The notes beneath the pieces are model-generated. The model was not told where the DNA came from, ran no database searches, and saw only the letters and a list, made by a program, of their open reading frames with translations. Source: Rhodocyclaceae bacterium (GTDB lineage: Bacteria; Pseudomonadota; Gammaproteobacteria; Burkholderiales; Rhodocyclaceae). From it: a stretch of 15,540 bases of DNA. The stretch spans positions 1 to 15,540 of the forward strand of contig PNJM01000028.1 of the NCBI GenBank assembly GCA_013821865.1, in the 5' to 3' direction. The translations under genes were made by a program, and so were the position numbers. Shown in pieces: positions 2,267 through 15,540 of this stretch. Position 1 is the stretch's first letter. Every line of letters starts with the position of its first letter.

Positions 2267-3191
2267 AGGCGGCGACGATGCGCGCCACCAGCGGATGGCG
2301 CACCACGTCCTCGGCGAGAAAATCGGTGAAGGCGATGCCGCGCACCTCGCGCAGGATGCGCTGCGCCTCGATCAGGCCGCTCTTCATGCCGCGGGCGAGA
2401 TCGATCTGGGTGACATCGCCCGTGATGACCGCCTTGGCGCCGATGCCGATGCGGGTGAGGAACATCTTCATCTGTTCCGGCGTGGTGTTCTGCGCCTCAT
2501 CCAGGATGATGAAGGCGTGGTTGAGCGTGCGGCCGCGCATGTAGGCGAGCGGCGCGATCTCGATGGCCTGGCGCTCGAACAGCTTGGCCACCTTGTCGAA
2601 TCCCATCAGGTCGTAGAGCGCGTCGTAGAGCGGACGCAGATACGGATCGACCTTCTGCGCCAGGTCGCCGGGCAGAAAACCCAGCCGCTCGCCGGCCTCC
2701 ACCGCCGGGCGGGTAAGCACGATGCGGCTGACCTGGTCGCGTTCGAAGGCATCCACGGCGGAGGCCACGGCGAGATAAGTCTTGCCGGTGCCGGCGGGGC
2801 CGATGCCGAAGGCAATGTCGTGTTCCTGGATCTGGCGCAGATACTGCACCTGGCGCGGCGTGCGCCCGTGCAGCTCCGGCTTGCGCGTGAGCAGGCCGGG
2901 CTGATTGGCCTGGCCGCGCTCAGCCAACTGTCCCAACTCGATCAGGCCGAGCTGGATGTCGTCGACCGAGAGATGATCCTTGGCGGCGGCGTAGAAATGC
3001 TGCAGCGCCTGCGCGGCATGGGCTGCCTGCGCCGGATGCCCGTGCAGCGTGAAGCGCTCGCCGCGGCGGGCGATGGCGACATCGTAGGCCGCCTCGATCT
3101 GGCGCAGGTTCTCGTCCAGCGCGCCGCACAGGCTGGCCAGGCGCTGGTTGTCCACGGGGGAGAGGACGAGGTCGAGCGGCTTGGCCTTCAC
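2226..3191 (-). CDS. phoH: PhoH-family P-loop ATPase (YbeZ)
   Basis: A 321-residue PhoH-like protein, an ATPase related to superfamily 1 helicases and the usual operon partner of YbeY, with a proposed role in RNA metabolism. An N-terminal region of about 100 residues resembles the KH-like PhoH N-domain ([24 protein letters not shown]). The ATPase domain follows with Walker A GPAGTGKT (lysine about 137), the block [18 protein letters not shown], Walker [10 protein letters not shown] (about 225-232), and the sensor region [17 protein letters not shown]. The length is normal for the family. The start ATG overlaps the miaB stop as ATGA, and the 3' end overlaps ybeY by 41 bp. Confidence 0.95.
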
Positions 3192-4636
3192 GGTTCGCGG
3201 GTGACGATCTCGCCGCGCAGCGAATGCGGCATCGCGGCAGTGATGGTGACGTCGGCGAAACTGCCGGTCAGGCGCGGCCGGCCGGCGAAGTTGACGATGC
3301 GGTTGTTGTCGGTGCGCCCGGCCAGCTCGCCGGCGTCCTTTTTGGACGGTCCCTCGACCAGAACGCGCTGCACGCTGCCGACCATGCCCTCGCTGATGGC
3401 CAGGGCCTGTTCCTCGATGCGCTTCTGCAGGCGCATCAGCCGCTCGATCTTCAGTTCATGCGGCGTATCGTCGGCAAGTTCCGCCGCCGGCGTGCCGGGA
3501 CGCGGGCTGTAGACGAAGCTGAAGGAGGCGTCGAAGCCGACCTCCTCGATGAGCTTCATGCTCGCCTCGAAATCGGCCGCACTCTCGCCGGGAAAGCCGA
3601 CGATGAAATCGGTCGACATGGAAATGTCCGGCCGCGCCGCGCGCAGGCGGCGCACGATGGACTTGTATTCCAGCGCCGTGTAGCCGCGCTTCATGGCGGC
3701 CAGAATGCGGTCGGAACCCGACTGCACCGGCAGGTGCAGGTGCGAGACCAGCTTGGGCAGCCTGGCGTAGACATCGATCAGGCGTTGCGCCATCTCGCGC
3801 GGGTGCGAGGTGGTATAGCGGATGCGTTCGATGCCGGGAAGCTCGTGCACGCACTCCAGCAACAGGGCGAAATCCGCTTCCCCATCGGGCAAGGCGCCGC
3901 GGTAGGCATTGACGTTCTGGCCGAGCAGCGTCACTTCCTTCACGCCCTGACCGGCCAGGCCGGCGATCTCGGCCAGCACGTCCCCGACCGGGCGCGACAC
4001 CTCCTCGCCGCGGGTGTAGGGCACGATGCAGAACGTGCAGTACTTGCTGCAGCCCTCCATCACTGAAACGAAGGCCGAGGGCGACTGCCCACCCCCCAAC
4101 CCCCGCCCCACAGGCGGGGGTGACGGCAGTTCGCCGCTGCGCGGCTCCGCATCGTTGGCTGTCCCCGGCTCGGGGCGGCCCGTCGCCGGGGGCAGTTTCT
4201 CCATCCTGACGTACGCGGGTGTGAGCCGGTCAAACTTTTCGAGCTCCGGGAAAGAGGTGTCCACCTGCGGCCGGCCGGAGGCGCGGCGCTCGCGAATGAG
4301 CTGGGGCAGTCGGTGCAGGGTCTGCGGTCCGAAGACGATATCGACGAAGGGCGCACGCTCGACAATCGCCGTGCCTTCCTGGCTCGCCACGCAGCCTCCC
4401 ACGCCGATCACCAGATCCGGCTTCTGCAGCTTGAGGTGCCTGACGCGGCCGAGATCGTGGAACACCTTCTCCTGCGCCTTCTCGCGCACCGAGCAGGTGT
4501 TGAACAGAATGACGTCGGCCTCTTCGGGAAAATCGGTCTTCTCGATGCCTTCGGCGGCAAGCACGTCGGCCATGCGGTCCGAGTCGTACTCGTTCATCTG
4601 GCAGCCGAAGGTCTTGATGTAGAGCTTTTTGGCCAC
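3188..4636 (-). CDS. miaB: tRNA-2-methylthio-N6-dimethylallyladenosine synthase
   Basis: A radical SAM methylthiotransferase that converts i6A37 to ms2i6A37 in tRNAs reading UNN codons. From the GTG at 4636 it is 482 residues, opening [15 protein letters not shown] like other MiaB proteins. The N-terminal MTTase cluster cysteines are C12, C48 and C82. The radical SAM motif GCSKYCTFC has C196, C200 and C203, and a TRAM domain closes the protein ([21 protein letters not shown]). GTG is preferred because homology begins there and because it shares one base with the upstream stop (TAGTG). An ATG at 4684 would add 16 unrelated residues inside the preceding gene. Residues 151-186 (4079-4186) are an extra Pro/Gly-rich stretch between the MTTase and radical SAM domains, encoded by a palindromic element. 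All six cysteines are present and the frame is open, so function is probably retained. Confidence 0.95.
4081..4133. repeat. GC-rich palindromic element inside miaB
   Basis: A nested inverted repeat. Inner arms are ACCCCCGCC (4099-4107) and GGCGGGGGT (4113-4121) around the loop CCACA. Outer arms are ACTGCC (4084-4089) and GGCAGT (4125-4130), and pairing continues with GCG/CGC if one base is bulged. It encodes the residues around [15 protein letters not shown] in MiaB. Translated low-complexity strings of this kind are typical of small dispersed palindromic repeats in GC-rich proteobacteria. That it is a member of a multicopy family is inference: only this copy is in the window. Confidence 0.6.
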
Positions 4637-4980
4637 TACTGCTGGGGGTCGGAACGGGCTGCTTCTTCCGGCGTGAGTACCCACACGCGATTGACGTCGC
4701 CGCCGGCATCGACCAGGTAGCGCACCGGCACGGGCTGCTGCAGGGTTATCGGCTGGACGATGCGGTTCTGGGCATCGCGTATCTGCAGTCCCGGCGCAAG
4801 ATGCAGCGTCTTGTTGCCGAAGCGCGCATATCCCTGCGCCGGAGGCTCCATGACGGCCTTGACCGCACCCTGCGGCATCGGGCGGATCGTCATCTGCGGC
4901 GTTTCGGGCGCAACCGGACCCGGCGCCTGCGGAGCCGAGCCGAGGATGCCGGTGATGATCGCCGGGATGAGCGGGTTCAT
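4636..4980 (-). CDS. Hypothetical protein upstream of miaB
   Basis: A 114-residue protein I do not recognise. The N-terminus [14 protein letters not shown] is a short hydrophobic stretch that could be a membrane anchor or weak signal, followed by a Pro-rich segment ([11 protein letters not shown]) and a C-terminal part that looks folded ([13 protein letters not shown] through [10 protein letters not shown]). The composition suggests a small envelope-associated protein, but no catalytic motif is visible. The start ATG at 4980 has a GAGGCG Shine-Dalgarno-like motif about 6 bases upstream. The stop overlaps the miaB GTG by one base (TAGTG), so the two are probably co-translated. The coding bias and overlap support a real gene; the function is unknown. 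Confidence 0.7.
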
Positions 4981-5033: not shown

Positions 5034-7592
5034 TCAGGCCAGGGTGAAGAAGAACGTTGCGCCCTTGCCGGGAACGGCTTCGGCCCAGATTCGCCCGCCA
5101 TGGCGCTCGATAATGCGCTTGACGATGGCCAGCCCCACCCCCGTGCCTGGAAAATCGGCCTCTCTGTGCAGGCGGTGGAATACGCCGAAAAGTTTCGTGG
5201 CATGTTCCATCTCAAAGCCGACGCCATTGTCCCTGACGAAAAACACCGGCTGCCCTTCTTCCCTCGCCACGCCGACCTCCACCAGCGGAGCGGTGCACCT
5301 GGCGGTGAACTTGAGGGCATTGCCGACCAGGTTGAGCAAGGCCTGTCGCAGGAGGGCCGGATCCGCCATGACGGCCGGCATCGGATGCACCTGCACGCGG
5401 GCGAGCGGATTGTCCTCGCGCAATTCCTCGGCCACGGTGCGCACCATTGCCTCCATGTCCACCTGCGTGCGATTCAGGCCGATGCGGCCAACCTTCGAGA
5501 AGTTGAGCAGATCGTCGATCAGCACTCCCATGCGCACCGCACCGCGCGCAATGCGCTCCAGCATGTCCACCGACTCGGGGCCCAGATGCGCCCTCTCTTC
5601 CTGGATCAGAATGCTGGCGTAGCCGTTGATGGCCCGCAAGGGGGTGCGCAGGTCGTGCGAAATGGAATAGGCGAAGGACTCCAGCTCGGCATTGGCCCGC
5701 GCCAGCTCGGCGGTTCGCTCGGCCACGCGATGCTCGAGCGAAGCGGCGAGCCGCAGGATTTCCTTCTGCGCGCGCTGGCGCTCGGAGATGTCGATCACGA
5801 CAGCCAGGCATTTCCAGCGCCCTTCGCGCACGACCGCCTGCAGGTGCACTTCCACCGGGTATTCGCTGCCGTCGGTGCGCCGATGTCTTGTTTCGAAAAC
5901 CTGTTTCGGCTTCTCCTGCTGGAGGAGCTGCTGAACCAGCCTGGAAAAAGCCCCTTCGGTGTAATCGGGCATGAGATCCAGCGGCGTCATCCGCATCAGG
6001 CCATGGAAATCGCAGCCGAGGTTGTGCAACGCTCCGCTGTTGGCGTACTCATAGCGCAGCGTGGCGGCATCGAAGACATAGATTTCGTTGAGGCTCTGCT
6101 CGACGATCGCCAGCAGCTGGCGGTTTTCCTCCTCCGCCTGCTTGATCTCGGTAATGTCCGAGACGATGCCGTCCAGGCGCGCCTGCCTGCCCTGCCCGTC
6201 GGCGACATGGCGCCAGCGCGCCTCGATCCAGCGCACTTCGCCGCCGGGGCGGATGATCCGGTACTCCATGACCCCCATTCCGGAGGCGAGGATATGGTCC
6301 ATGACCGCCTCGGCCTGCGCGCGATCGTCCGGGTGCACGAGTTCCAGCCACAATCCAGGCTTCGTGCGGAATTCGGCAGCCTCGTGGCCAAAGATTTTTT
6401 TGGTCGAGTCGCTGGCAAAGAACAACACCCCCATGTCCGGAGCAAAGGACCATAGCGCGCGATCCATCGAACCGAGCACTGAATTCAGCATTGCCTGGGC
6501 CTCTTCCAGTCCACGCTCGCGCTCGGCCAGGGCGTCCAGCATGCCATTCAATTGAACGGCAACCTCAGCCACTTCCTTCGCGCCTGCGGCCGGCACGCGA
6601 ATATCCCGCCTCCCTTCGCCGAAAGCGTGCGCCGCCGAAGCAACGGCGTGGATCGGCGCCGCGATCCTCCGGCTTAGGTAATATGACAGCAAAAGGGCCA
6701 GGACCAGAACACCCGCAGCATAGGCAGCATGCTGCAGGGCGCTTGTCATCACTTTCTGCTTGATGCGCGCAACGTCGATCCCGACGATGGCGATCCAATC
6801 CGTGCCTTGTACGGGCTCAAAGCCGTAAATCCGCTCCACGCCGTCTGCGGCCGAGGCGGCGCGCACGACGCCGCTGCGCTGTTCGATGATCGCCTGGCCC
6901 GCCGGATCTCCTCTTCGGCTTTGGCCGATATGCCGGTCCGGATCGGGCAAGTGCGAGATGATCAAACCCTCGCCATTCATGATGACCGTGACCGGCTGCT
7001 CGGGCAGCTCCAGCCTGGCGACAAGAGAGTGGAAACGTTCGAACTGGGCAGCGGCAATCACCATGCCGGCGGCGCGCCCCGCCCCGCCCCGCACCGGATA
7101 GGCCAAGGGCAATACCCAGCTGCCGCTCGTGCGCTCCTTGAGAGGCGCGCCGACAAGCAGCCTGGGGTGGGCACCTGCCAGCGCCAGCAGAGGGCGGGCG
7201 GCCGTCAGGCCATCCACCGCCTCCGCGTTGGGGCCGGCCGCGATGCAAACAAGCCGGCCGCCCTGGTCCAGTATGGCAATGCCCGCGTACTCGCGGCGGA
7301 TGGTTTCGATGTCGCTGAACAGCTCATGACAGCGGGACGGCTCCAGGCTGCCCGTTTCGATGCGCCGCGCGATATCGCCCAGGCGTTGCTCGGCCCTTTC
7401 GAAATAATGCTGCGAATCGGCCGCGGCCACCCTCGCCAGGCGCCGGGCTTCGTCATGCGCCCTGTCAAATCCCTTTTGGGCTTCCTGATAAATATCGAAT
7501 GCAGAAGCCAAGAGCAGCGGCAGAACGGCGGCAAGCACCAGGATTTGCAGTTGGGCCCGGATTGACCGGGCAGGGGCACCCGTCAAAGCCAT
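5034..7592 (-). CDS. Membrane-bound PAS sensor histidine kinase
   Basis: An 852-residue sensor kinase. Seen in order: a membrane segment at about 14-33 (LQILVLAAVLPLLLASAF); a periplasmic region of about 250 residues resembling a double Cache domain; a second membrane segment at about 285-306; a HAMP linker to about 365; PAS domain 1 (about 370-490, ending DGIVSDITEIKQAEEE) and PAS domain 2 (about 495-610, ending VVIDISERQRA); a coiled coil; HisKA with phospho-acceptor H646 in SISHDLRTPLRAI; and HATPase_c with N box NLVGNALKFT (about 753), G1 DNGVGF and G2 GTGVGLAIV (about 816). No receiver domain is attached, and no response regulator gene is in the window. It reads divergently from the PqqD/ATP-grasp cluster, so it may sense a signal controlling that cluster; this is inference. 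The ligand is unknown. Confidence 0.9.
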   Translation of the reverse strand: MALTGAPARSIRAQLQILVLAAVLPLLLASAFDIYQEAQKGFDRAHDEARRLARVAAADSQHYFERAEQRLGDIARRIETGSLEPSRCHELFSDIETIRREYAGIAILDQGGRLVCIAAGPNAEAVDGLTAARPLLALAGAHPRLLVGAPLKERTSGSWVLPLAYPVRGGAGRAAGMVIAAAQFERFHSLVARLELPEQPVTVIMNGEGLIISHLPDPDRHIGQSRRGDPAGQAIIEQRSGVVRAASAADGVERIYGFEPVQGTDWIAIVGIDVARIKQKVMTSALQHAAYAAGVLVLALLLSYYLSRRIAAPIHAVASAAHAFGEGRRDIRVPAAGAKEVAEVAVQLNGMLDALAERERGLEEAQAMLNSVLGSMDRALWSFAPDMGVLFFASDSTKKIFGHEAAEFRTKPGLWLELVHPDDRAQAEAVMDHILASGMGVMEYRIIRPGGEVRWIEARWRHVADGQGRQARLDGIVSDITEIKQAEEENRQLLAIVEQSLNEIYVFDAATLRYEYANSGALHNLGCDFHGLMRMTPLDLMPDYTEGAFSRLVQQLLQQEKPKQVFETRHRRTDGSEYPVEVHLQAVVREGRWKCLAVVIDISERQRAQKEILRLAASLEHRVAERTAELARANAELESFAYSISHDLRTPLRAINGYASILIQEERAHLGPESVDMLERIARGAVRMGVLIDDLLNFSKVGRIGLNRTQVDMEAMVRTVAEELREDNPLARVQVHPMPAVMADPALLRQALLNLVGNALKFTARCTAPLVEVGVAREEGQPVFFVRDNGVGFEMEHATKLFGVFHRLHREADFPGTGVGLAIVKRIIERHGGRIWAEAVPGKGATFFFTLA

Positions 7593-7772: not shown

Positions 7773-8054
7773 ATGGAAAAGGCCAACAGCCCGATTGGGC
7801 AATCGGTTGACTTGCCCAAGCCGGAAGTCTTGATGCGGCTGGCGCTCAGCGACAACGGCTTCGTTTTCGACCCGGTCGCCGGCAACAGCTTCACCGTGAA
7901 TGGCACGGGCCTTGCGATCCTGCGGCGGCTTCAGCACGAGTCCGATCTTGATAGTATCGTCGCCTCCCTTCAGGAGGAATTCGAGGTCGATGCAATGGTC
8001 GCCGAGCGCGACGTGATCGAATTCGCCGGCCTGTTGCGCAACGCCTTCAAATAA
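7773..8054 (+). CDS. PqqD-like small protein (RRE fold)
   Basis: A 93-residue protein resembling the PqqD family. The signature is a short beta region followed by helices: VFDPVAGNSFTVNGTGLAIL, then LQHESDLDSIVASLQEEFEV and a terminal helix RDVIEFAGLLRNAF. In PqqD and related RiPP recognition elements this winged-helix fold binds a leader peptide and presents it to a modifying enzyme, usually a radical SAM protein. No PQQ biosynthesis gene and no radical SAM partner is nearby; the next gene, 4 bp downstream, is an ATP-grasp enzyme. The ATG at 7773 is preceded by GAGAG; a TTG four codons upstream is less likely. It is the first gene of the cluster. Its exact role and any peptide partner are unknown. 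It is too long and too conserved-looking in fold to be a precursor peptide, though that cannot be excluded. Confidence 0.75.
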   Translation: MEKANSPIGQSVDLPKPEVLMRLALSDNGFVFDPVAGNSFTVNGTGLAILRRLQHESDLDSIVASLQEEFEVDAMVAERDVIEFAGLLRNAFK

Positions 8055-8058
8055 GAAA

Positions 8059-9123
8059 ATGACGGCCATCAACGTGGCGGTTACCGGCATGAATGCCGTG
8101 CCGGATAATCCCGGCGCCGGCCTTGCGGTCGCGCGTTGCCTGCGCGAAGCTTTTGGCGACCGCGTCCGGATCGTCGGCCTTGGCTACGATGCTCTCGATC
8201 CCGGCCTGCATCTCGGCGAATACTGCGACAGCGCGTACCTGCTTTCCTACCCGTCAAGCGGCGCCGAAGCGCTTCTGGCCAGACTGTCGGAGATTCACGA
8301 GAGCGAGCCGATCGACATGCTGCTGCCCTGCCTCGACGCCGAGTTGCCGCTCCTGGTCGGCCTCGCCCCCCGGCTCGCCGAAATGGGCATCCGCAGCTAT
8401 CTTCCCGACGCCAGCCAGCTTGCCCTGCGCGCAAAGGATCGGCTGCCGGAACTGGCCGAAACGGCCGCCGTCGGCACCCCGGAAACCCTTGCTATCATGC
8501 ATCCCGACTTCTTCCGTGACTGCGGCCGGAAAGGCTGGGAATTCCCGCTGGTCGTGAAGGGTGTTTTCTACGATGCGCGGGTGGCGGCGAATGCGGAGGA
8601 GGCGTCAGCCGCGTTTCGCTCCATCGCTGCCGAGTGGGGCTTGCCGGTGCTGGTCCAGCGCTGGATCGCCGGCGAAGAATGCAATCTCACCGCCGTGGGC
8701 GACGGAACCGGCGCCCTCCACGGCGAAGTGATGATGAAAAAGCGCGCTGTCACCGCCCGAGGCAAGGCCTGGGCGGGCGTTTCGATCAACGACGAGGACC
8801 TGGCCGGCATTGCGCACCGGCTGGTCGCCGCACTCAAATGGAAAGGGCCGATCGAAGTCGAGGTCATGCGCGATACGAAGGGCGGCTACCATCTCATCGA
8901 AATCAACCCGCGTTTCCCGGCCTGGATCTACCTCTCGCAGGGGGTAGGGCGCAATCTGCCGGCCCTGCTGCTCGCGCTGGCGTTCGGCCGGGAAACCCCA
9001 CCGCTTGCGCCACCCCGGCCCGGCATGCTGTTCCTACGCTACGCGCAGGAAATCATCGTACCGCTGTCTTCCTTCGAGGCTCTCATGATGGCCGGGAGGT
9101 CGGCGCAGGAAAGCGAAAGGTAA
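8059..9123 (+). CDS. ATP-grasp ligase (CarB/PylC-like)
   Basis: A 354-residue ATP-grasp enzyme. The family joins a carboxylate to an amine or thiol through an acyl-phosphate. The N-terminal Rossmann-like domain opens INVAVTGMNAVPDNPGAGLAVARCL, followed by a LLPCLDAELPLL segment. The ATP-binding region includes PLVVKGVF, LVQRWIAGEECNL and the magnesium-ligand motif LIEINPRFPAW with E281 and N283. The overall look resembles CarB-type and PylC-like amino-acid ligases rather than RimK or D-Ala-D-Ala ligase, but the acceptor cannot be read from sequence. The start follows the PqqD-like stop by 4 bp, and the next gene begins 3 bp after its stop, so it is central to the operon. Together with the adjacent PLP decarboxylase it suggests an amino-acid or peptide substrate. 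Confidence 0.85.
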   Translation: MTAINVAVTGMNAVPDNPGAGLAVARCLREAFGDRVRIVGLGYDALDPGLHLGEYCDSAYLLSYPSSGAEALLARLSEIHESEPIDMLLPCLDAELPLLVGLAPRLAEMGIRSYLPDASQLALRAKDRLPELAETAAVGTPETLAIMHPDFFRDCGRKGWEFPLVVKGVFYDARVAANAEEASAAFRSIAAEWGLPVLVQRWIAGEECNLTAVGDGTGALHGEVMMKKRAVTARGKAWAGVSINDEDLAGIAHRLVAALKWKGPIEVEVMRDTKGGYHLIEINPRFPAWIYLSQGVGRNLPALLLALAFGRETPPLAPPRPGMLFLRYAQEIIVPLSSFEALMMAGRSAQESER

Positions 9124-9126
9124 GAA

Positions 9127-10515
9127 ATGACGCAGCGCATGCCGTGGGTCAAGCCCGCGCTCACCCCTCACCGGGCGGGCGGCATGAACAAGTTCGGCGC
9201 CGTGCGCCCGCAGCAGCACCAGCCCGAACTGGATGGCGCGGCGATCGCGCCGCTGCTGGAGCAATACGGCTCCCCGCTCTTCATCGTCTCGGAAAAAAAA
9301 TTGCGCGAAAACGCACGCCACCTGCGGCGCGCCTTCTCCACCCGCTGGCCGAAGGTGCGCCACGGCTGGTCATACAAGACCAATTATCTGGGTGCCGTGT
9401 GCAATGTCCTGCATCAGGAGGGCGCCTGGGCCGAGGTCGTGTCCGAATTCGAGTACCGCAAGGCGCGCGCCCTTGGCGTGCCGGGGTCGCGGATCATATT
9501 CAACGGCCCCTGGAAGCCGGCCGGCATTCTCGAACAGGCGCTGCTCGAAGGCGCCACGATCCATCTTGACCACCTCGACGAACTCTACGCGGTCGAAGCC
9601 ATCGCGCGCCGCTTGGGAAAGCAGATACCGATCGGCCTGCGCCTCAATTTCGACACTGGCCACACCGAGCCATGGAGCCGCTTCGGCTTCAACCTCGAGA
9701 CAGGCGCCGCCATGGACGCCGTGCAGCGCATCGGCTCCAGCCAGTGGATGAAGCTTGCCGGGCTGCACAGCCACATCGGCACGTTCGTGCTGGACGTGCG
9801 CGCCTATGCCCGGCAAGCGCGCATCATGGCCGAGTTCATGGAAGCCGCAGAGCGCGAAACCGACTGCAGCATCGAGTACCTGGACATCGGCGGCGGCTTC
9901 GCGTCACGCAATGCCCTGCAGGGCCTGTACCTGCCGCCTGACCAGGTAGTGCCCAGCTTCGAGCAGTATGCCGAAGCCATCGTGGATGCCCTGTCCGAGG
10001 CCACGCGCGGGCGCACCGCGCTGGGCAAGCCCCTGCCGGTGCTCGTGCTGGAAACCGGGCGTGCGGTGGTCGATGACGCCGAGATTCTCGTCACCCGGGT
10101 CGTCGGCGGCAAGCGTCTGCCGGACGGGCGGCGTGCCGCCATACTCGATGCCGGAGTCAATCTGCTGTTCACGGCTTACTGGTACAACCACGAAGTCAGG
10201 CCCATGCAGCCGCTCGAGGGCCTGGCCGAGGAAACCGTTCTCTACGGGCCGCTGTGCATGAACATCGACACGGTGCGAGCCTCCGTGATGCTGCCGCCGC
10301 TCAACCTCGGCGACGCCTTGCTGATCTCCCCTGTCGGGGCCTATAACAACACGCAATGGATGCAGTTCATCCAGAACCGGCCCGCCGTCGTGATGGTCAT
10401 GCAGGATGGCAAGGTCGAGCCGATCCGCCTGGCAGAGACTCTGCAGACGATCACCGACATCGAGCGCATGCCGGAAACCTTGCGTTCGCCCTTCCCCGAA
10501 ACGCAGCCAAGATGA
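9127..10515 (+). CDS. Fold-III PLP-dependent decarboxylase (LysA/ODC-like)
   Basis: A 462-residue alanine-racemase-fold PLP enzyme, the class that includes diaminopimelate, ornithine/arginine and carboxynorspermidine decarboxylases. Seen: the PLP lysine in WSYKTN (K84), HSHIGT (214-219), the phosphate-binding loop DIGGGF (253-258), ETGR (309-312, where relatives have EPGR), and the substrate-side motif GPLCMNID with C377. LysA normally has CESxD here; the glutamate is replaced by methionine, so meso-diaminopimelate is probably not the substrate. The ATG at 9127 has AAAGG 8 bases upstream; a second ATG at 9184 begins nearer the homologous core and remains possible. The stop overlaps the next start as ATGA. 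It most likely decarboxylates an amino acid or a ligated product of the neighbouring ATP-grasp enzyme. Confidence 0.85.
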   Translation: MTQRMPWVKPALTPHRAGGMNKFGAVRPQQHQPELDGAAIAPLLEQYGSPLFIVSEKKLRENARHLRRAFSTRWPKVRHGWSYKTNYLGAVCNVLHQEGAWAEVVSEFEYRKARALGVPGSRIIFNGPWKPAGILEQALLEGATIHLDHLDELYAVEAIARRLGKQIPIGLRLNFDTGHTEPWSRFGFNLETGAAMDAVQRIGSSQWMKLAGLHSHIGTFVLDVRAYARQARIMAEFMEAAERETDCSIEYLDIGGGFASRNALQGLYLPPDQVVPSFEQYAEAIVDALSEATRGRTALGKPLPVLVLETGRAVVDDAEILVTRVVGGKRLPDGRRAAILDAGVNLLFTAYWYNHEVRPMQPLEGLAEETVLYGPLCMNIDTVRASVMLPPLNLGDALLISPVGAYNNTQWMQFIQNRPAVVMVMQDGKVEPIRLAETLQTITDIERMPETLRSPFPETQPR

Positions 10516-12650
10516 GTGCGGCCGCCTGGCAGCCTCCTTCGTTCGAACGCATCGGCCGCTCCCTGGCCAAGGCCTACGCCGCGGTTTTTTTCTGCCACTC
10601 CCCCTGGGTCGGCGCCTGGTTCGCCGCCTTGACCTGGTGGACGCCCCGCGCCGCCCTGGGCGGCCTGGCCGGGCTGCTGGCCGCCCTGCTGTGGGCCCGC
10701 GTGTTCCATCTCTCCACCGTAGGCCGTCTCCACCTGGTGAACGGCCTGTTGAGCGGCCTGATAATCGGCGCCCTTCATACCATCGAGGCCGCATTCTTTC
10801 TCTGGATCGCGCTGGCCGCCCTGCTGTCCACCCTGCTCGCTCATTGGCTGGCCGCACTCTTCTGGAAAACCGCCCGGCTGCCCGTCCTCAGCCTGCCTTT
10901 CGCCATTGCCTGCTGGACGGTTTTCCTGGCCTGGCAGGCCAACGCGCCGGCCACCCTGCCACTCAGCGCCCTGACAGCGGGAAACGTCCCCTTGTTCCGG
11001 CCTTGGCTGGACGACTTCTTCATCTCCATCGGCTGGCTCCTGCTGATTCCGTATCCTTTGGCGGGCGCTTTGGTTTTCTCTGGAATTCTGGTGGCGTCAC
11101 GCTACCTGGCTCTGCTGGCCGTGGCAGGCTATGCCGCGGGGATGGCCGCCGTGCTCATGCTGGGCGGCGGCGACACGCGCATGACCGCCTTCAACTTCGT
11201 GCTGGCCGCCATGGCACTGGGCGGGTTCTTCGCCGTGCCCGGTCGTGCCAGCTTCCTCGCCGCGATTACTGCAAGCGTACTGGCCGGATGGTGCGCCATA
11301 GCGCTGGAAACGTTGTTGCATCCCCTGCACCTGCCTTTGCTGACGATGCCCTTCCTGTGCGCCACCTATGTGATGCTGGGCAGCCTGGGCGCGCGGCTGA
11401 GCGCCCGCGAGCCGATCCTCACGCTGGATCATCCCGCCACTCCGGAAATCAATTACGAGCGCGCGCGTCTGGCGCAGGCACGCGGCGGGAAAGCGGACAG
11501 CCTGCCCCTGCAGCCGCCGTTCCACGGGGAATGGCGCATCACGCAGGGCTTTGACGGCCCGCATACGCACCGCAGGCCCTGGCAGCACGCGCTCGACTTC
11601 GATATTGCCGATGGCGACCGCAACCACGGTGGCGACGGAACCGCTCGAGAGGATTATTTCTGCTTCGGCGCCCCGGTCCTCGCGCCGATTGCAGCCCAGG
11701 TCGTGCGGCTGCGCGACGACCTGGTCGACGTCCTGCCGGGAGAGGTCGATGTCGCCAACAACTGGGGCAACTTTCTCCTCCTGCGCACCGGCGCCGGCCT
11801 GCATGTGCTGCTTGCCCACCTCAAACGCAGCAGCATCAAGGTGCGCGTCGGCGAATGGGTTGCGGCGGGCCAGCAAGTGGCCAGTTGCGGCAGTTCCGGC
11901 CGCTCCCCTGTCCCGCACCTGCATCTGCAGGTTCAGCTTGAGGAGCAACTGGGCAGCCCTACGCGGCCTTTCCATCTCACCAACGTCCTGCTGCGCGGCA
12001 AGAACCTTGCACGCGAATTCCGCCTCTTCCACCTCCCCTCGGCCGGCGAGGAGGTGAGCGCCGCACTGAGCGACGAGCGGCTGGCTGCCGCGGTGCGGCT
12101 GTCGAGGGATCGCGTGCTGGCTTACCGGTTTCGCACCTCTCCCGGGGGCGATGTCAAGCCCGTCACGCTGCGAGCGAAATTGACCTTGCTCGGCCAGCCC
12201 CGGCTGGAAACCGGCAACGGAGCATCGGCCGCCTACGAGGAAACGCCGGCCGTGCTCGGGTTCTACGACAGGAATGCCCGGCGCGATCACATGCTCGACC
12301 TGTGGCTGCTGGCGGTGGGGCTCACTCCGCTCTCCGCCGTGGCCGACCACTGGAACGACCGTCCTCCCGCACGCCTGCTGCCGCTCCCGGCCGGACAGCG
12401 GCTGCTCTGCGCGCTGCTGCGTCCGCTCGGCGCAAGCTGCGACAGCCGCTATCGCCGCAAATGGGACGAGGCAAGCGGCACTTGGCTTCAGGAGGGCGAG
12501 CATACCCTGCGACTTGCGCCCGGCTTTGCGTGGCGCTGCCTGACCCGCGCCTGGATCGAGCCGGGGCGGGGCATCTGCCGTCTTCGGCTGGAAATGCAGG
12601 GCACAGTCTGGGAAGCTGAGCTGGAATCCGGATCTCCTCCCCTTTCGTGA
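10512..12650 (+). CDS. Urea-transporter-like membrane domain fused to M23 metallopeptidase
   Basis: A 712-residue fusion. Residues about 1-300 are strongly hydrophobic, with around ten membrane segments, and resemble bacterial urea transporters (UT/SLC14): HLVNGLLSGLIIGAL, then LPVLSLPFAIACWTVFLAW and the repeated half later (LPLLTMPFLCATYVMLG). Residues about 335-500 are an M23/LytM-type domain: ITQGFDGPHTH, QHALDFD (H359, D362), a VLLAHLKR segment and the zinc motif PHLHLQV (H469, H471). In the canonical HxGxD motif histidine is four residues before aspartate; here H359 is three before, so the first ligand may instead be an upstream histidine. A further 200 residues follow without a motif I recognise. 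The start overlaps the decarboxylase stop (ATGA). The enzyme domain presumably faces the periplasm. Whether the channel part carries urea is not known. Confidence 0.85.
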   Translation: MSAAAWQPPSFERIGRSLAKAYAAVFFCHSPWVGAWFAALTWWTPRAALGGLAGLLAALLWARVFHLSTVGRLHLVNGLLSGLIIGALHTIEAAFFLWIALAALLSTLLAHWLAALFWKTARLPVLSLPFAIACWTVFLAWQANAPATLPLSALTAGNVPLFRPWLDDFFISIGWLLLIPYPLAGALVFSGILVASRYLALLAVAGYAAGMAAVLMLGGGDTRMTAFNFVLAAMALGGFFAVPGRASFLAAITASVLAGWCAIALETLLHPLHLPLLTMPFLCATYVMLGSLGARLSAREPILTLDHPATPEINYERARLAQARGGKADSLPLQPPFHGEWRITQGFDGPHTHRRPWQHALDFDIADGDRNHGGDGTAREDYFCFGAPVLAPIAAQVVRLRDDLVDVLPGEVDVANNWGNFLLLRTGAGLHVLLAHLKRSSIKVRVGEWVAAGQQVASCGSSGRSPVPHLHLQVQLEEQLGSPTRPFHLTNVLLRGKNLAREFRLFHLPSAGEEVSAALSDERLAAAVRLSRDRVLAYRFRTSPGGDVKPVTLRAKLTLLGQPRLETGNGASAAYEETPAVLGFYDRNARRDHMLDLWLLAVGLTPLSAVADHWNDRPPARLLPLPAGQRLLCALLRPLGASCDSRYRRKWDEASGTWLQEGEHTLRLAPGFAWRCLTRAWIEPGRGICRLRLEMQGTVWEAELESGSPPLS

Positions 12651-12693
12651 AACCGGGAGAAAGATGCGTTACGATTTGCAAAGGAGAAGCGCC

Positions 12694-13317
12694 ATGGTCA
12701 CGATCACGCGACTGATTGCCTGGAACCTTGCCGCGCTGGCGGCAACAATGCTGGTACCGGCCGCCTACGCGCAGCCGGATCCCTGGTCGGAATCGTATCG
12801 GCTGGAATATATAGGCAAGAACATCGAGGCGCAGGCCTTGGTCGAGCCGATAGCCACACGCCAGCCCATCAACGAATTCGCCATCATGCGCACGGCCTGG
12901 CTGCTGCACCTGCAGGGCAAATACGCAGAGGCCGAGAAGCGCTACCTGAGGGCGGTGGAGGTGAACCCGCGCTCGCTCGAGGCCAAGCTGGGCGTCATGC
13001 TGCCCCAGATGGCGCTCCTTCGCTGGAACGACGCCATCCAGAGCGGCCGCAAGGTTCTCGCGGAAAGCCCGTGGAACTACACGGCCCACGTCCGCATCAT
13101 GATCTGCGAGGAGGCGTTATCGCGCTGGGAGGACCTGTCCAGGCATGCAGCGGAGGTTTCCGCGCGCTATCCGACCGACGCAACGGTGCTGGTGTATTGG
13201 GCGCGTGCCGAAGCCGCCCTGAAACGCACGCGCAAGGCCAAGGAGGTCTACGCCCAGGTGCTGGAGCGCGTGCCGGGCCATATCGAGGCGACGAACTACC
13301 TCAGAAACAATCCCTGA
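12694..13317 (+). CDS. Secreted TPR-repeat protein
   Basis: A 207-residue protein with a signal peptide (ITRLIAWNLAALAATMLVP, cleavage likely after AAYA before QPDPW), then helical repeats of TPR type. One clear unit is AWLLHLQGKYAEAEKRYLRA followed by VEVNPRSLEAKL, and another is ARAEAALKRTRKAKEVYAQV followed by LERVPGHIEATNYL. Such proteins act as periplasmic scaffolds; no enzymatic motif is seen. I chose the ATG at 12694, which has AAGGAG 7 bases upstream and leaves a clean signal peptide. The ATG at 12664, with GGGAG 4 bases upstream, would add ten charged residues and is the alternative. It follows the transporter-peptidase gene by 43 bp and is probably the last gene of the operon. An envelope site matches the M23 partner. 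Confidence 0.8.
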   Translation: MVTITRLIAWNLAALAATMLVPAAYAQPDPWSESYRLEYIGKNIEAQALVEPIATRQPINEFAIMRTAWLLHLQGKYAEAEKRYLRAVEVNPRSLEAKLGVMLPQMALLRWNDAIQSGRKVLAESPWNYTAHVRIMICEEALSRWEDLSRHAAEVSARYPTDATVLVYWARAEAALKRTRKAKEVYAQVLERVPGHIEATNYLRNNP

Positions 13318-13351: not shown

Positions 13352-14011
13352 TCAGTGAACGAGCCAGTAGCGCACCAGCTCGTGAATCTCGTGGTTGTAG
13401 GGCGCGTTCTCGACCGTGTCTTTGTATTCGTAGCGGACCGCGTTGCGCACCGCCGGGGAATACCACAGCGTGTCCTCGATTCTTCCGCTCCAGGAACCCT
13501 CCTGGCTCCTCCCGCTGTACGCTCCCTTGACCTCGATTTTCAGGGCGAAAAAAGTGCCGGCCGGAACCGTCACGCTTTCAAACCCGATTACCCGCCCCTC
13601 GAGGTCCGCCTTCACCGTCTTGTCGGGTTGTTTGGTATGGGCAAGGTCGACGGAATGCCTCCAGGTTTTTCCTATCTGCAGGGGAAACGCGAAATTCGGG
13701 TAATACGGCAGCGCTGTCTGCGCAAAGTCCCGGCCCTCGATACGCACGAGATTGAAATCCCTGTTTCGCAGGATGTCCGCGACATGAGTCCCATCCAGGC
13801 CGGTCGCCTCCAGGAAAATGCCGTCGGCGGCGACCTTCTTGACCTTGACGACCGAGACGTCCTCGAGCAACTTGCTCCAGCCATCCAGCTTGTTATAGAT
13901 CCAGACGTCACCCACCTTGACCGTGGGCCCATCGATAGACTCCGGCCGGCTCTGCGCAAAGGCGCCCGCCACGGAAATAAAACAGAGGGTAAGCAAAGCC
14001 AGCGCGCGCAT
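13352..14011 (-). CDS. Secreted hypothetical protein (DUF3108-like flavour)
   Basis: A 219-residue protein with a signal peptide (MRALALLTLCFISVAGAFAQ, cleavage near AFA-Q), then a beta-rich domain with many aromatic residues: VKVGDVWIYNKLDGW, FPLQIGKTWRHSVDL, VTVPAGTFFALKIEV, and a C-terminal part with IEDTLWYSPAVRNAVRYEY. The VPAGTF motif followed by paired strands and a WYSP turn recalls periplasmic DUF3108-like beta proteins, but I do not claim membership. It converges on the TPR gene, 34 bp from its stop. The ATG at 14011 was chosen because the signal peptide begins there; the longer in-frame extension to 14158 has Cys-rich, non-secretory sequence. No clear Shine-Dalgarno precedes it; a palindromic repeat abuts the start instead. 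Confidence 0.75.
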   Translation of the reverse strand: MRALALLTLCFISVAGAFAQSRPESIDGPTVKVGDVWIYNKLDGWSKLLEDVSVVKVKKVAADGIFLEATGLDGTHVADILRNRDFNLVRIEGRDFAQTALPYYPNFAFPLQIGKTWRHSVDLAHTKQPDKTVKADLEGRVIGFESVTVPAGTFFALKIEVKGAYSGRSQEGSWSGRIEDTLWYSPAVRNAVRYEYKDTVENAPYNHEIHELVRYWLVH

Positions 14012-14340: not shown

Positions 14341-14379
14341 GCCGAAACCCGCGCCGGTTCTAGGGGGTGTTTTTCGAAT

Positions 14380-14408
14380 TAGACACCCTCCCCCTACCCG
14401 GCTATCAT
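14380..14408 (+). promoter_or_regulatory. Promoter of the toxin-antitoxin operon
   Basis: TAGACA (14380-14385) and TATCAT (14403-14408) are each one or two changes from the sigma-70 consensus and are separated by exactly 17 bases. Transcription would begin near 14415. An inverted repeat GGGTGT (14365-14370) / ACACCC (14383-14388) overlaps the -35 box and is placed where an autoregulatory antitoxin would bind. Confidence 0.55.
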
Positions 14409-14441
14409 TGTTTTATTGGGATGTTCAATGGGGAATGGGCC

Positions 14442-14690
14442 ATGACCACACCTGCAACGCTTTCACAAACCGATCAACGCCGCCTGGACAAACTCGCCAA
14501 GGCAGCCGGCCGCACGCCTCAGCAGGCGCTGCGGTTCGTGCTGCGGGATGGATTCGAGGCCACCGAGCGCACGGTCAAGCTGGTGTCTGCCCGCATGAAG
14601 AAGGGGCGGACGATTCCGCATGAAGAAGTCAAACAACGACTCGACGCGTTGATCGCCGTCCATGCCGGGAAGAAGAAAAAAGCGGCTTGA
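14442..14690 (+). CDS. Putative antitoxin of a RelE/ParE-type module
   Basis: An 82-residue, charged, mostly helical protein. The N-terminal part (SQTDQRRLDKLAKAAGRTPQQALRFVLRDGFE) looks like a ribbon-helix-helix or related DNA-binding region. The C-terminal part has GRTIPHEEVKQRLDAL, a string found in many antitoxins, and ends in a lysine tail. The toxin gene overlaps its 3' end by 29 bp. I chose the ATG at 14442 because the promoter predicts transcription from about 14415, too close to serve the in-frame ATG at 14421 or the upstream one; the sequence GGGGAATGGG precedes it. Likely roles are neutralising the toxin and repressing its own promoter. Confidence 0.75.
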   Translation: MTTPATLSQTDQRRLDKLAKAAGRTPQQALRFVLRDGFEATERTVKLVSARMKKGRTIPHEEVKQRLDALIAVHAGKKKKAA

Positions 14691-15008: not shown

Positions 15009-15359
15009 TCATCGACTGCTCCACACGCATCCTGCCACCCTTGGAATTGCTCCATCCCGGCAACAGCAATTGATTGTCACGGAGATGAGCAACCAACCGC
15101 CGCGCGCATCCGGAATGGAAAAACGGTGCTCACCGCGCGCCCGGAAAACTGCCTTCTGCGCTTCTGTGAATTGCTTGCCCTGTTGGCGCTCCAGTACCGT
15201 GATGGCCTCGTCGGCCTCGTTCTCCCACTGGTCGCAGAGGCGCTTGTAGAACATCAGCGACAGGATGTAGTTCTTATAATCCTGCCCGGCAGTCTTGCCA
15301 CGCAGGATGTTGGCGGCGCCCCACAGGTGTGCTTCGAGTTGTTGTTGGGTCAGTCTCAT
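15009..15359 (-). pseudogene. hsdM: Truncated type I restriction methylase (hsdM N-terminus)
   Basis: From the ATG at 15359 the first 84 or so residues are those of the HsdM N-terminal helical domain: MRLTQQQLEAHLWGAANIL, then AGQDYKNYILSLMFYKRLCDQW and a linker EHRFSIPD. After SIPD (about 15108) the sequence no longer resembles HsdM, which would continue with the rest of the N-domain and the SAM-binding methylase core. A stop occurs at 15009. The usual length is about 500 residues, so over 80 percent is missing, including the NPPF/Y catalytic motif. The start overlaps the upstream gene as ATGA, showing it was once the second gene of an operon. Truncation rather than frameshift is likely, because the sequence to the left is a toxin-antitoxin pair on the other strand. 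Confidence 0.8.
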
Positions 15360-15540
15360 TGTTGTTCCGGTGTCAGTTCTGACTCGCCCATCCAGTAACA
15401 CAGCAGCGGTGCCGGGATGCGCAATATTCGAGTGGTGGTGTCGGGCAGGTCAGCAATCGTGCCGAAATCGTCCAGCGATTTCGTGACCACGTAGCCGCGA
15501 TCAATGGATTTTTGCTGGCAGAGTTCAAGCAGGCCCTTGA
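15356..15540 (-). CDS. C-terminus of a probable DUF4143-type ATPase (partial)
   Basis: The last 60 residues of a protein whose start lies beyond the right edge. The tail reads LLELCQQKSIDRGYVVTKSL, then ILRIPAPLLCYWMGESELT. This resembles the C-terminal end of COG1373/DUF4143 AAA-type ATP-binding proteins, which commonly end with a GYV(I/V)TKSL strand and an IPAxLxCYWLGxSE motif and which often sit inside type I restriction operons. No ATPase motif can be checked because that part is outside. Its stop overlaps the hsdM start (ATGA), so the two were one transcriptional unit. Confidence 0.55.
   Translation of the reverse strand, partial: KGLLELCQQKSIDRGYVVTKSLDDFGTIADLPDTTTRILRIPAPLLCYWMGESELTPEQQ

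Follow-up and report, generated by a model that had tools for sequence, protein, structure and literature searches.

The window that we analyzed is a 15,540-nucleotide stretch of DNA from a Rhodocyclaceae bacterium (GenBank assembly GCA_013821865.1, contig PNJM01000028.1), corresponding to contig 28 of a 2.76-Mb genome with an estimated completeness of 81.7%. Five of its genes, here called A to E, belong to a real and widespread operon for synthesis and transport, as yet unnamed, that contains two unusual fusions. We tentatively propose that A-B-C-D form the core of an undescribed operon of patchy distribution, which would produce and transport a small compound derived from an amino acid, through a scheme of conjugation, decarboxylation, release, and passage through a channel; we consider this reading plausible rather than probable. 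The core probably marks a novel small molecule with a real physiological role. The gene set and its fusions are not described in the open-access literature that we searched (PubMed Central subset; titles and starts of abstracts), and nothing in that source contradicts the original prediction, made from the sequence of the window, that no named system has this set. Two architectures were likewise found undescribed there: the fusion of a urea channel with a hydrolase, and that of a recognition-element domain with a TetR-like DNA-binding region. Moreover, no core protein reached the cutoff of any NCBIfam model.

Genes A to E and the domains of D are located as follows (aa, amino acids; PLP, pyridoxal 5'-phosphate; TPR, tetratricopeptide repeat; RRE, recognition element of ribosomally synthesized and posttranslationally modified peptides [RiPPs]).

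7773 to 8054, plus strand: gene A, PqqD/RRE-like protein, 93 aa (Pfam PqqD, 49.4 bits)
8059 to 9123, plus strand: gene B, ATP-grasp ligase, 354 aa, carbamoyl-phosphate synthetase-like/PylC-like (Pfam ATPgrasp_Ter, 35.7 bits; ATP-grasp_3, 25 bits)
9127 to 10515, plus strand: gene C, fold-III (alanine-racemase-fold) PLP decarboxylase, 462 aa (Pfam Orn_Arg_deC_N, 101 bits; Orn_DAP_Arg_deC, 45.8 bits)
10512 to 12650, plus strand: gene D, 712-aa fusion of a urea channel, an M23 metallohydrolase, and a LolA-like domain (Pfam UT, 138.4 bits; Peptidase_M23, 47.3 bits)
10527 to 11480, plus strand: D residues 6 to 323, complete urea-channel fold
11499 to 11996, plus strand: D residues 330 to 495, M23-type domain with H353-x8-D362, H436, and H469-x-H471
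12000 to 12647, plus strand: D residues 497 to 712, LolA/LolB/VioE-like half-barrel domain
12694 to 13317, plus strand: gene E, TPR protein, 207 aa, with an N-terminal hydrophobic signal-like segment (several Pfam TPR models)

All five genes lie on the plus strand with gaps of 4, 3, −4, and 43 bp, and AAGGAG stands immediately 5' of the E start at 12694. The original prediction had described five co-directional genes with these gaps, the last as about 43 bp, set between a divergent sensor kinase and a convergent gene; the gaps are exact, and both flanking genes were found (5034 to 7592 and 13352 to 14011, each on the minus strand). Its labels (PqqD-like, ATP-grasp, PLP decarboxylase, M23 fusion, and TPR) are each backed by Pfam. 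The transporter/M23 fusion that it named is real but was incompletely described, as the transporter is a urea-channel (UT) domain and a third, LolA-like domain is added.

In the proposed mechanism, which is the simplest that uses every part, A would recruit the substrate or dock the enzymes onto it. B would link an amino acid to a partner (a carrier peptide or protein, or a small carboxylate or amine), and C, as an FslC/BtrK-like enzyme, would strip the alpha-carboxylate from the still-conjugated amino acid. D's M23-type hydrolase, located on the cytosolic side of the inner membrane, would cut the amide while the LolA-like domain holds the conjugate, and the freed small polar product would pass through D's own urea-type pore. 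Beyond the inner membrane, E and a further protein found at other loci, X5 (gene G product in the window's clade), would handle the product. The computations show the linkage, the identity of the domains, the conservation of active-site residues, the predicted topology, and a shared upstream site; the substrate, the order of reactions, release by the M23 domain, and the direction of flow are what we infer. A more detailed version, which we regard as doubtful, is an RRE-guided conjugate-then-decarboxylate pathway in which a cytosolic M23 domain with an altered zinc site clips the product directly into the urea-family channel of the same polypeptide, with a TetR-RRE switch in some lineages.

Conservation and linkage of the core genes

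A search of genome_contigs with an alignment of 27 D sequences returned at least 80 loci, of which we used the best 80. Gene order was counted in the 64 loci whose sequence extends more than 3.3 kb upstream of D, and A-B-C-D occurred on the same strand and in the same order in 63 of them, the sole exception being L096. The intergenic gaps were short (medians, −4, 2.5, and 9.5 bp), with outliers of up to 1.3 kb. The original prediction had set in advance, as support for a system, the recurrence of at least four of the five genes in the same order in distant genomes, and this is what A-B-C-D display, an arrangement that chance is far from explaining. According to the titles of the records, the loci derive from alpha-, beta-, gamma-, and zetaproteobacteria and Magnetococcales, as well as from a Desulfobulbaceae record (Thermodesulfobacteriota), a Geothrix record (Acidobacteriota), and several Melainabacteria/Obscuribacterales records, so that at least four phyla are represented among the matches listed. 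One Nitrospirae metagenome-assembled genome also carries the locus and may be mis-binned. The best genome_contigs matches of the window were Rhodocyclaceae/Rhodocyclales records. Cultured carriers are found among the records, namely a pure culture of Mariprofundus and two Legionella strains from culture collections.

Pairwise distances of A, B, C, and D (67 sequences each) were correlated, with Spearman coefficients of 0.67 to 0.80, and none of 200 permutations matched for any pair. These correlations support the view that the four genes are inherited or transferred together, although common descent would by itself also produce correlation. In a scan of 274 class genomes, with B called at an E value of ≤1e-40, B was found in 11 genomes at 12 loci, and all 12 lay on a contig bearing D. 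D occurred without B at contig edges in G179 and G233, and G250 had a weak D (∼30% identity) on a 13-kb contig that lacks A-B-C. Among 398 phylum genomes, B was found in 37 genomes at 38 loci. D lay directly downstream on the same strand at 32 of these (several cut by contig ends, and G438 recovered via tblastn only), and at G333:C182 it shared the contig on the other side of B, whose downstream side runs off the contig. Two more loci (G459 and G333:C60) reach the contig end before D could appear. D itself was found in 37 of the 398 genomes, with the match in G652 covering the M23 part only and those in G433 and G434 lying at contig edges. Thus, linkage is very strong, not absolute. The idea that the window holds an unrecognized conserved system, a cytoplasmic trio with envelope partners, is strongly supported by the locus set and by this whole-genome co-occurrence. 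The distribution is patchy even within one family, where B occurred in 20 of 74 genomes, or 10 of 36 among the better assemblies. Separately, G333 has two B loci (C182 and C60, the latter being L149), and C182, with its D on the far side of B, perhaps holds two consecutive copies of the cassette.

The recognition protein and the two enzymes

Residues G29, F30, F32, D33, P34, G37, and N43 of A were conserved in at least 95% of 68 sequences (of 69 before length filtering). Lasso-peptide B1/RRE proteins and PqqD share its Pfam domain, and the solved proteins nearest to it by profile are the lasso-peptide proteins TfuB1 and TbiB1. In contrast to these families, A misses the cutoff of every PqqD-type NCBIfam model that it matched, among them the PqqD equivalog (26.7 bits; cutoff, 46) and the PqqD_rel_X equivalog of the HPr-rel-A system (29.2 bits; cutoff, 35), and it carries a TetR-like extension in 15 loci. 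Pfam gave no acyl carrier protein match for A, only PqqD and a sub-cutoff Propep_M14.

The lasso-peptide relatives of A raise the alternative of a RiPP pathway, in which A would recognize a precursor encoded elsewhere, B and C would modify it, and D would remove the leader with its M23 domain and export the product, in the manner of peptidase-containing transporters. The union of an M23 domain with a transport domain would suit such a role, as would the TetR-like extension, which suggests that A senses the state of the pathway. We nevertheless consider a RiPP pathway unlikely. When 2,918 short open reading frames (ORFs; 18 to 110 aa) within 1.5 kb of the 80 loci and the window were clustered, no convincing conserved precursor family emerged, although a precursor may be unlinked or fast evolving; A to E had no YcaO, radical SAM, or lasso-cyclase Pfam match; and peptides would not fit through a urea-type pore unless it were altered. 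By appearance, the 25 largest short-ORF groups were antisense shadows, upstream-site DNA, or low-complexity matches.

The ATP-grasp ligase and the decarboxylase adjoin, and length filtering left 71 of 72 B and 71 of 77 C sequences for analysis. B matched profiles of 2pn1, carbamoyl-phosphate synthetase, and PylC, and its EINPR stretch (residues 281 to 285) and K167 were conserved in at least 95% of sequences, as were K84 (the presumed PLP lysine), C377, and D381 of C. The best solved relative of C was the N-citrylornithine decarboxylase 7kh2 (196 bits), followed by diaminopimelate (DAP) decarboxylases (116 bits), D-ornithine/lysine decarboxylase (84 bits), BtrK-type enzymes (73 to 76 bits), lysine/ornithine decarboxylases (65 to 69 bits), and ornithine decarboxylases (44 bits). 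PMC7857480 groups FigC, SbnH, AcsE, MccE, and BtrK with the DAP and D-ornithine decarboxylases in a single clade. Judged by scores rather than by a tree, C appears to be a member of this FigC/BtrK clade. Conjugate-then-decarboxylate chemistry is favored because C is nearest to an N-citrylornithine decarboxylase and A resembles peptide-binding proteins.

By analogy, the enzymes would follow a known logic. BtrJ is an ATP-grasp enzyme, and BtrI/BtrJ/BtrK of butirosin synthesis likewise comprise a small carrier-size protein, a ligase, and an alanine-racemase-fold decarboxylase that acts on a conjugated amino acid. That conjugate is BtrI-S-glutamate (PMC7857480). The locus differs in that A has a PqqD fold and is not a phosphopantetheine acyl carrier protein, in that C resembles FslC more than BtrK by score, and in its additional urea channel-hydrolase and envelope genes.

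FslC/FigC of the rhizoferrin pathway, in which conjugation also precedes decarboxylation, are the nearest characterized relatives of C. A siderophore-like metallophore could therefore be considered, with B and C building a conjugate that resembles a precursor of rhizoferrin or staphyloferrin, and with X5, E, and D serving export or uptake. Clade-2 decarboxylases other than the DAP and D-ornithine enzymes are likelier to act in specialized metabolites such as siderophores (PMC7857480). The envelope partner is barrel-like, and iron-oxidizer names occur among the 80 loci (Mariprofundus, Ghiorsea, Gallionella, and Sideroxydans). However, C scored only 215 bits against the FslC NCBIfam model (cutoff, 500), the ligase of the locus is of the ATP-grasp type, and neither a synthetase of nonribosomal-peptide-synthetase-independent siderophores (NIS; IucA/IucC) nor a TonB-dependent receptor was matched by model among the 15 window proteins scanned. 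The X5 proteins tested had no confident Pfam or NCBIfam match, and many carrier taxa are not iron oxidizers. On balance, a metallophore seems to us quite unlikely.

Two further features of C were observed. Residues 1 to 34 (window positions 9127 to 9228) precede the FslC-aligned region and keep W7, P10, N21, K22, and G24 in at least 95% of the 71 sequences; this stretch could be a docking tag for A. In a Legionella moravica record (L050:7502-8905), C is split into two ORFs of 60 and 390 aa.

The fusion protein D

The residues, charge, and cysteine content of D were examined in 80 sequences (the window and 79 of the 80 loci; L032 was dropped as short), and subset analyses used 65 of the best 120 homologs, 19 of the best 120 plus 7 loci, or 59 of the 80 D sequences. 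The AlphaFold model of D had a mean confidence (pLDDT) of 91.4, and both the UT and M23 Pfam domains were present in all of the best 120 of 211 homologs. LPxx(S/T)xPF is the signature motif of urea transporters, and the D of the window has the full channel fold and both copies of the motif (in the regions of residues 123 to 130 and 274 to 281), as in SLC14 and dvUT. It differs from these transporters in its fusion to M23 and LolA-like domains and in position 278 of the second motif, which is Ala in 57 of 80 sequences. The possibility that D imports urea or a small amide as part of a nitrogen module, with A-B-C making a regulatory or storage compound, is very improbable: D scored 82.9 bits against the urea-transporter equivalog TIGR03441 (cutoff, 274.6), and the close linkage to A-B-C would be left unexplained.

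The M23 residues of D were nearly invariant. In LytM, zinc is bound in an HxxxD/HxH scheme, and D shares with M23 peptidases (LytM, lysostaphin, Csd1/2, and LasA) the fold and the HxH motif. D362 is also kept, whereas the usual HxxxD histidine position was His in none of the 80 sequences, H353-x8-D362 standing in its place. Unlike these peptidases, D is predicted to be channel attached with its hydrolase in the cytosol. Urea transporters have an N-in/C-in topology, and the charge bias of D points the M23 side inward in 80 of 80 sequences. Cysteine made up 1.55% of the soluble part of D (an odd number of residues in 38 of 80), close to B (1.57%) and C (1.14%), with lower contents in E (0.35%) and X5 (0.08%). 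From charge bias and cysteine content, the M23 domain is probably cytosolic and thus probably not a peptidoglycan hydrolase, although the fold of the neighboring LolA-like domain argues for the opposite location.

This bears on the original prediction, which counted D among two membrane/periplasmic proteins and named the cutting of peptidoglycan cross-links as the activity of M23 enzymes; such cutting by D is unlikely given the predicted cytosolic location and the altered zinc-ligand pattern. Envelope or peptidoglycan modification more generally would have D in the inner membrane with a periplasmic M23 domain that cuts or modifies cell-wall peptides. The M23 fold is clear, E, X5, and G resemble envelope proteins, and LolA-like folds are usually periplasmic; yet the uniform charge bias, the cysteine content typical of the cytosolic partners, and the missing HxxxD histidine in all 80 sequences make this alternative improbable.

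Peptidase-containing ABC transporters combine a protease and a transport path within one protein. D is alike in joining a hydrolase to a transport path, and differs in having a channel fold and no C39 or ABC domain (Pfam matched UT and M23 only). If the coupling of channel and hydrolase is true, D would be a new kind of transporter. The channel also restricts the size and charge of the product.

It is important to note that several observations weigh against the proposed conjugate-decarboxylate-release-channel scheme. A-B-C lacked a nearby D at 3 of the 38 B loci (G325, G386, and G426), D and E occur without A-B-C in G310 and G337, and L096 and L098 resemble these two, so that neither half strictly requires the other. 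D without A-B-C fits an importer equally well as an exporter. The variable C terminus of A showed no conserved carrier residue in 15 representatives with the window (companion analyses used 12 and 11), and the null result for a precursor family counts here as well. M23 histidines 436, 469, and 471 are each replaced in 2 of 80 sequences, and with the two end segments left out, 72 of 80 sequences still show the charge bias. Most M23 and LolA-like proteins are extracytoplasmic, and urea channels are known for carrying very small neutral solutes, which restricts the product if the pore is unchanged. Finally, neither E nor X5 was nearby in 10 of the 67 loci whose sequence continues for more than 2.3 kb beyond D.

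Loci with D and E but no A-B-C are possibly a consumer or receiver version. Among the four of them (L096, L098, L147 of G310, and L148 of G337), X5 was matched in L096 and L098, and the D proteins of G310 and G337 are ∼61% identical to that of L096.

Envelope partners, regulation, and neighboring genes

In the 67 loci with enough sequence beyond D, E and X5 were both downstream of D in 36, E alone in 9, and X5 alone in 7; one locus had E downstream and a partner upstream, and four had E or X5 upstream of A only. A homolog of E was present anywhere in 56 of the 80 loci as well as in the window, and its N terminus suggests that E is secreted. Length filtering kept 55 of 57 E and 50 of 51 X5 sequences (one X5 analysis used 16 of 51). 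X5 is ∼300 aa long with a signal-like start, and its last residue was aromatic in 46 of 50 near-complete members. No match was found for X5 in Pfam above cutoff (two members), in NCBIfam (three members), or by sequence in the PDB, and an outer-membrane barrel is accordingly a putative assignment. X5 had no match in the window, and a search of the 81.7% complete genome, made without a positive control genome, gave none either.

The window instead has the convergent gene G:

13352 to 14011, minus strand: gene G, DUF3108-like protein, 219 aa, with a signal-like N terminus (DUF3108_like, 20.1 bits, below the cutoff of 27)

Homologs of G were found in 6 of the 80 loci (L022, L023, L025, L032, L058, and L082), none of which had an X5 match, and G is co-directional with the operon in L032, L058, and L082. 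G probably belongs to the locus, and it may take the place of X5 as envelope partner in the window's clade. Its profile matched the lipoprotein 4fvs (E value, 1.1e-4). Homology of G to the C-terminal domain of D was unsupported by profile comparison (hhalign probability, 0.9%), even though the profiles of both lead to 4fvs/3fzx. Thus, the original five-gene extent stands for A to E, but the unit reaches further, to G in this clade, to X5 and two-component regulators elsewhere, and to the TetR-like extension of A.

The divergent gene upstream of A is a candidate regulator:

5034 to 7592, minus strand: sensor histidine kinase with Cache (below cutoff), HAMP, two PAS, HisKA, and HATPase domains (Pfam), divergent from A

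In the nearest relatives of the window, L022 to L025, a kinase 59 to 70% identical to it (partial in L024) is encoded upstream of A on the other strand, and the sensor kinase is likely a regulator of the locus in the window's clade. Elsewhere, a two-component pair is often near the locus.

The 15 loci with a TetR-like N terminus encode a long A of ∼265 aa. Of four long A proteins tested, two passed the TetR_N cutoff and two showed PqqD only. We scanned a total of 1.21 million positions, in the 80 loci and the window, for the operator-like palindrome TGAAAGT-N4-ACTTTCA and found 13 sites scoring at least 13/14, 12 of them 9 to 83 bp upstream of long A genes. The 13th lies 464 bp upstream of the called A start in L070, where the actual A may be longer. 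The site in L061 scores 12/14, whereas no site was found near A in L033 or L034; in total, 13 of 15 long-A loci carry a site scoring at least 12/14. As the consensus was derived from the same upstream regions, this is position-specific conservation and not independent discovery. The sole exact site in each of G657 to G659 is the one at the locus, although two of these genomes have further sites with one mismatch, and G661 has none at ≤1 mismatch. G660 has an additional exact site within an ORF that resembles pilQ, and this second copy was ascribed to chance. The TetR-like extension would let the pathway's own substrate or carrier state switch the operon in some lineages, and the shared upstream site offers an inducer reporter.

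Other neighbors varied among loci. A tyrosinase gene follows D in L029 (L029:11403-12962), and genes of one methyltransferase-type family follow the cassette in L026, L028, L031, L048, and L057 (members from L031 and L026 were tested); both are possible tailoring enzymes. In the window, a dispersed repeat (4066 to 4200) lies in frame within a miaB-like gene (3188 to 4684, minus strand), and this 135-bp stretch has 14 matches in its own genome, itself counted. A ParE-type toxin gene (PF05016; 14662 to 14982) is overlapped by an upstream ORF (14367 to 14690) with no Pfam match that may be its antitoxin. A short, seemingly truncated ORF (15009 to 15401, minus strand) matches the N-terminal domain of HsdM, of type I restriction-modification.

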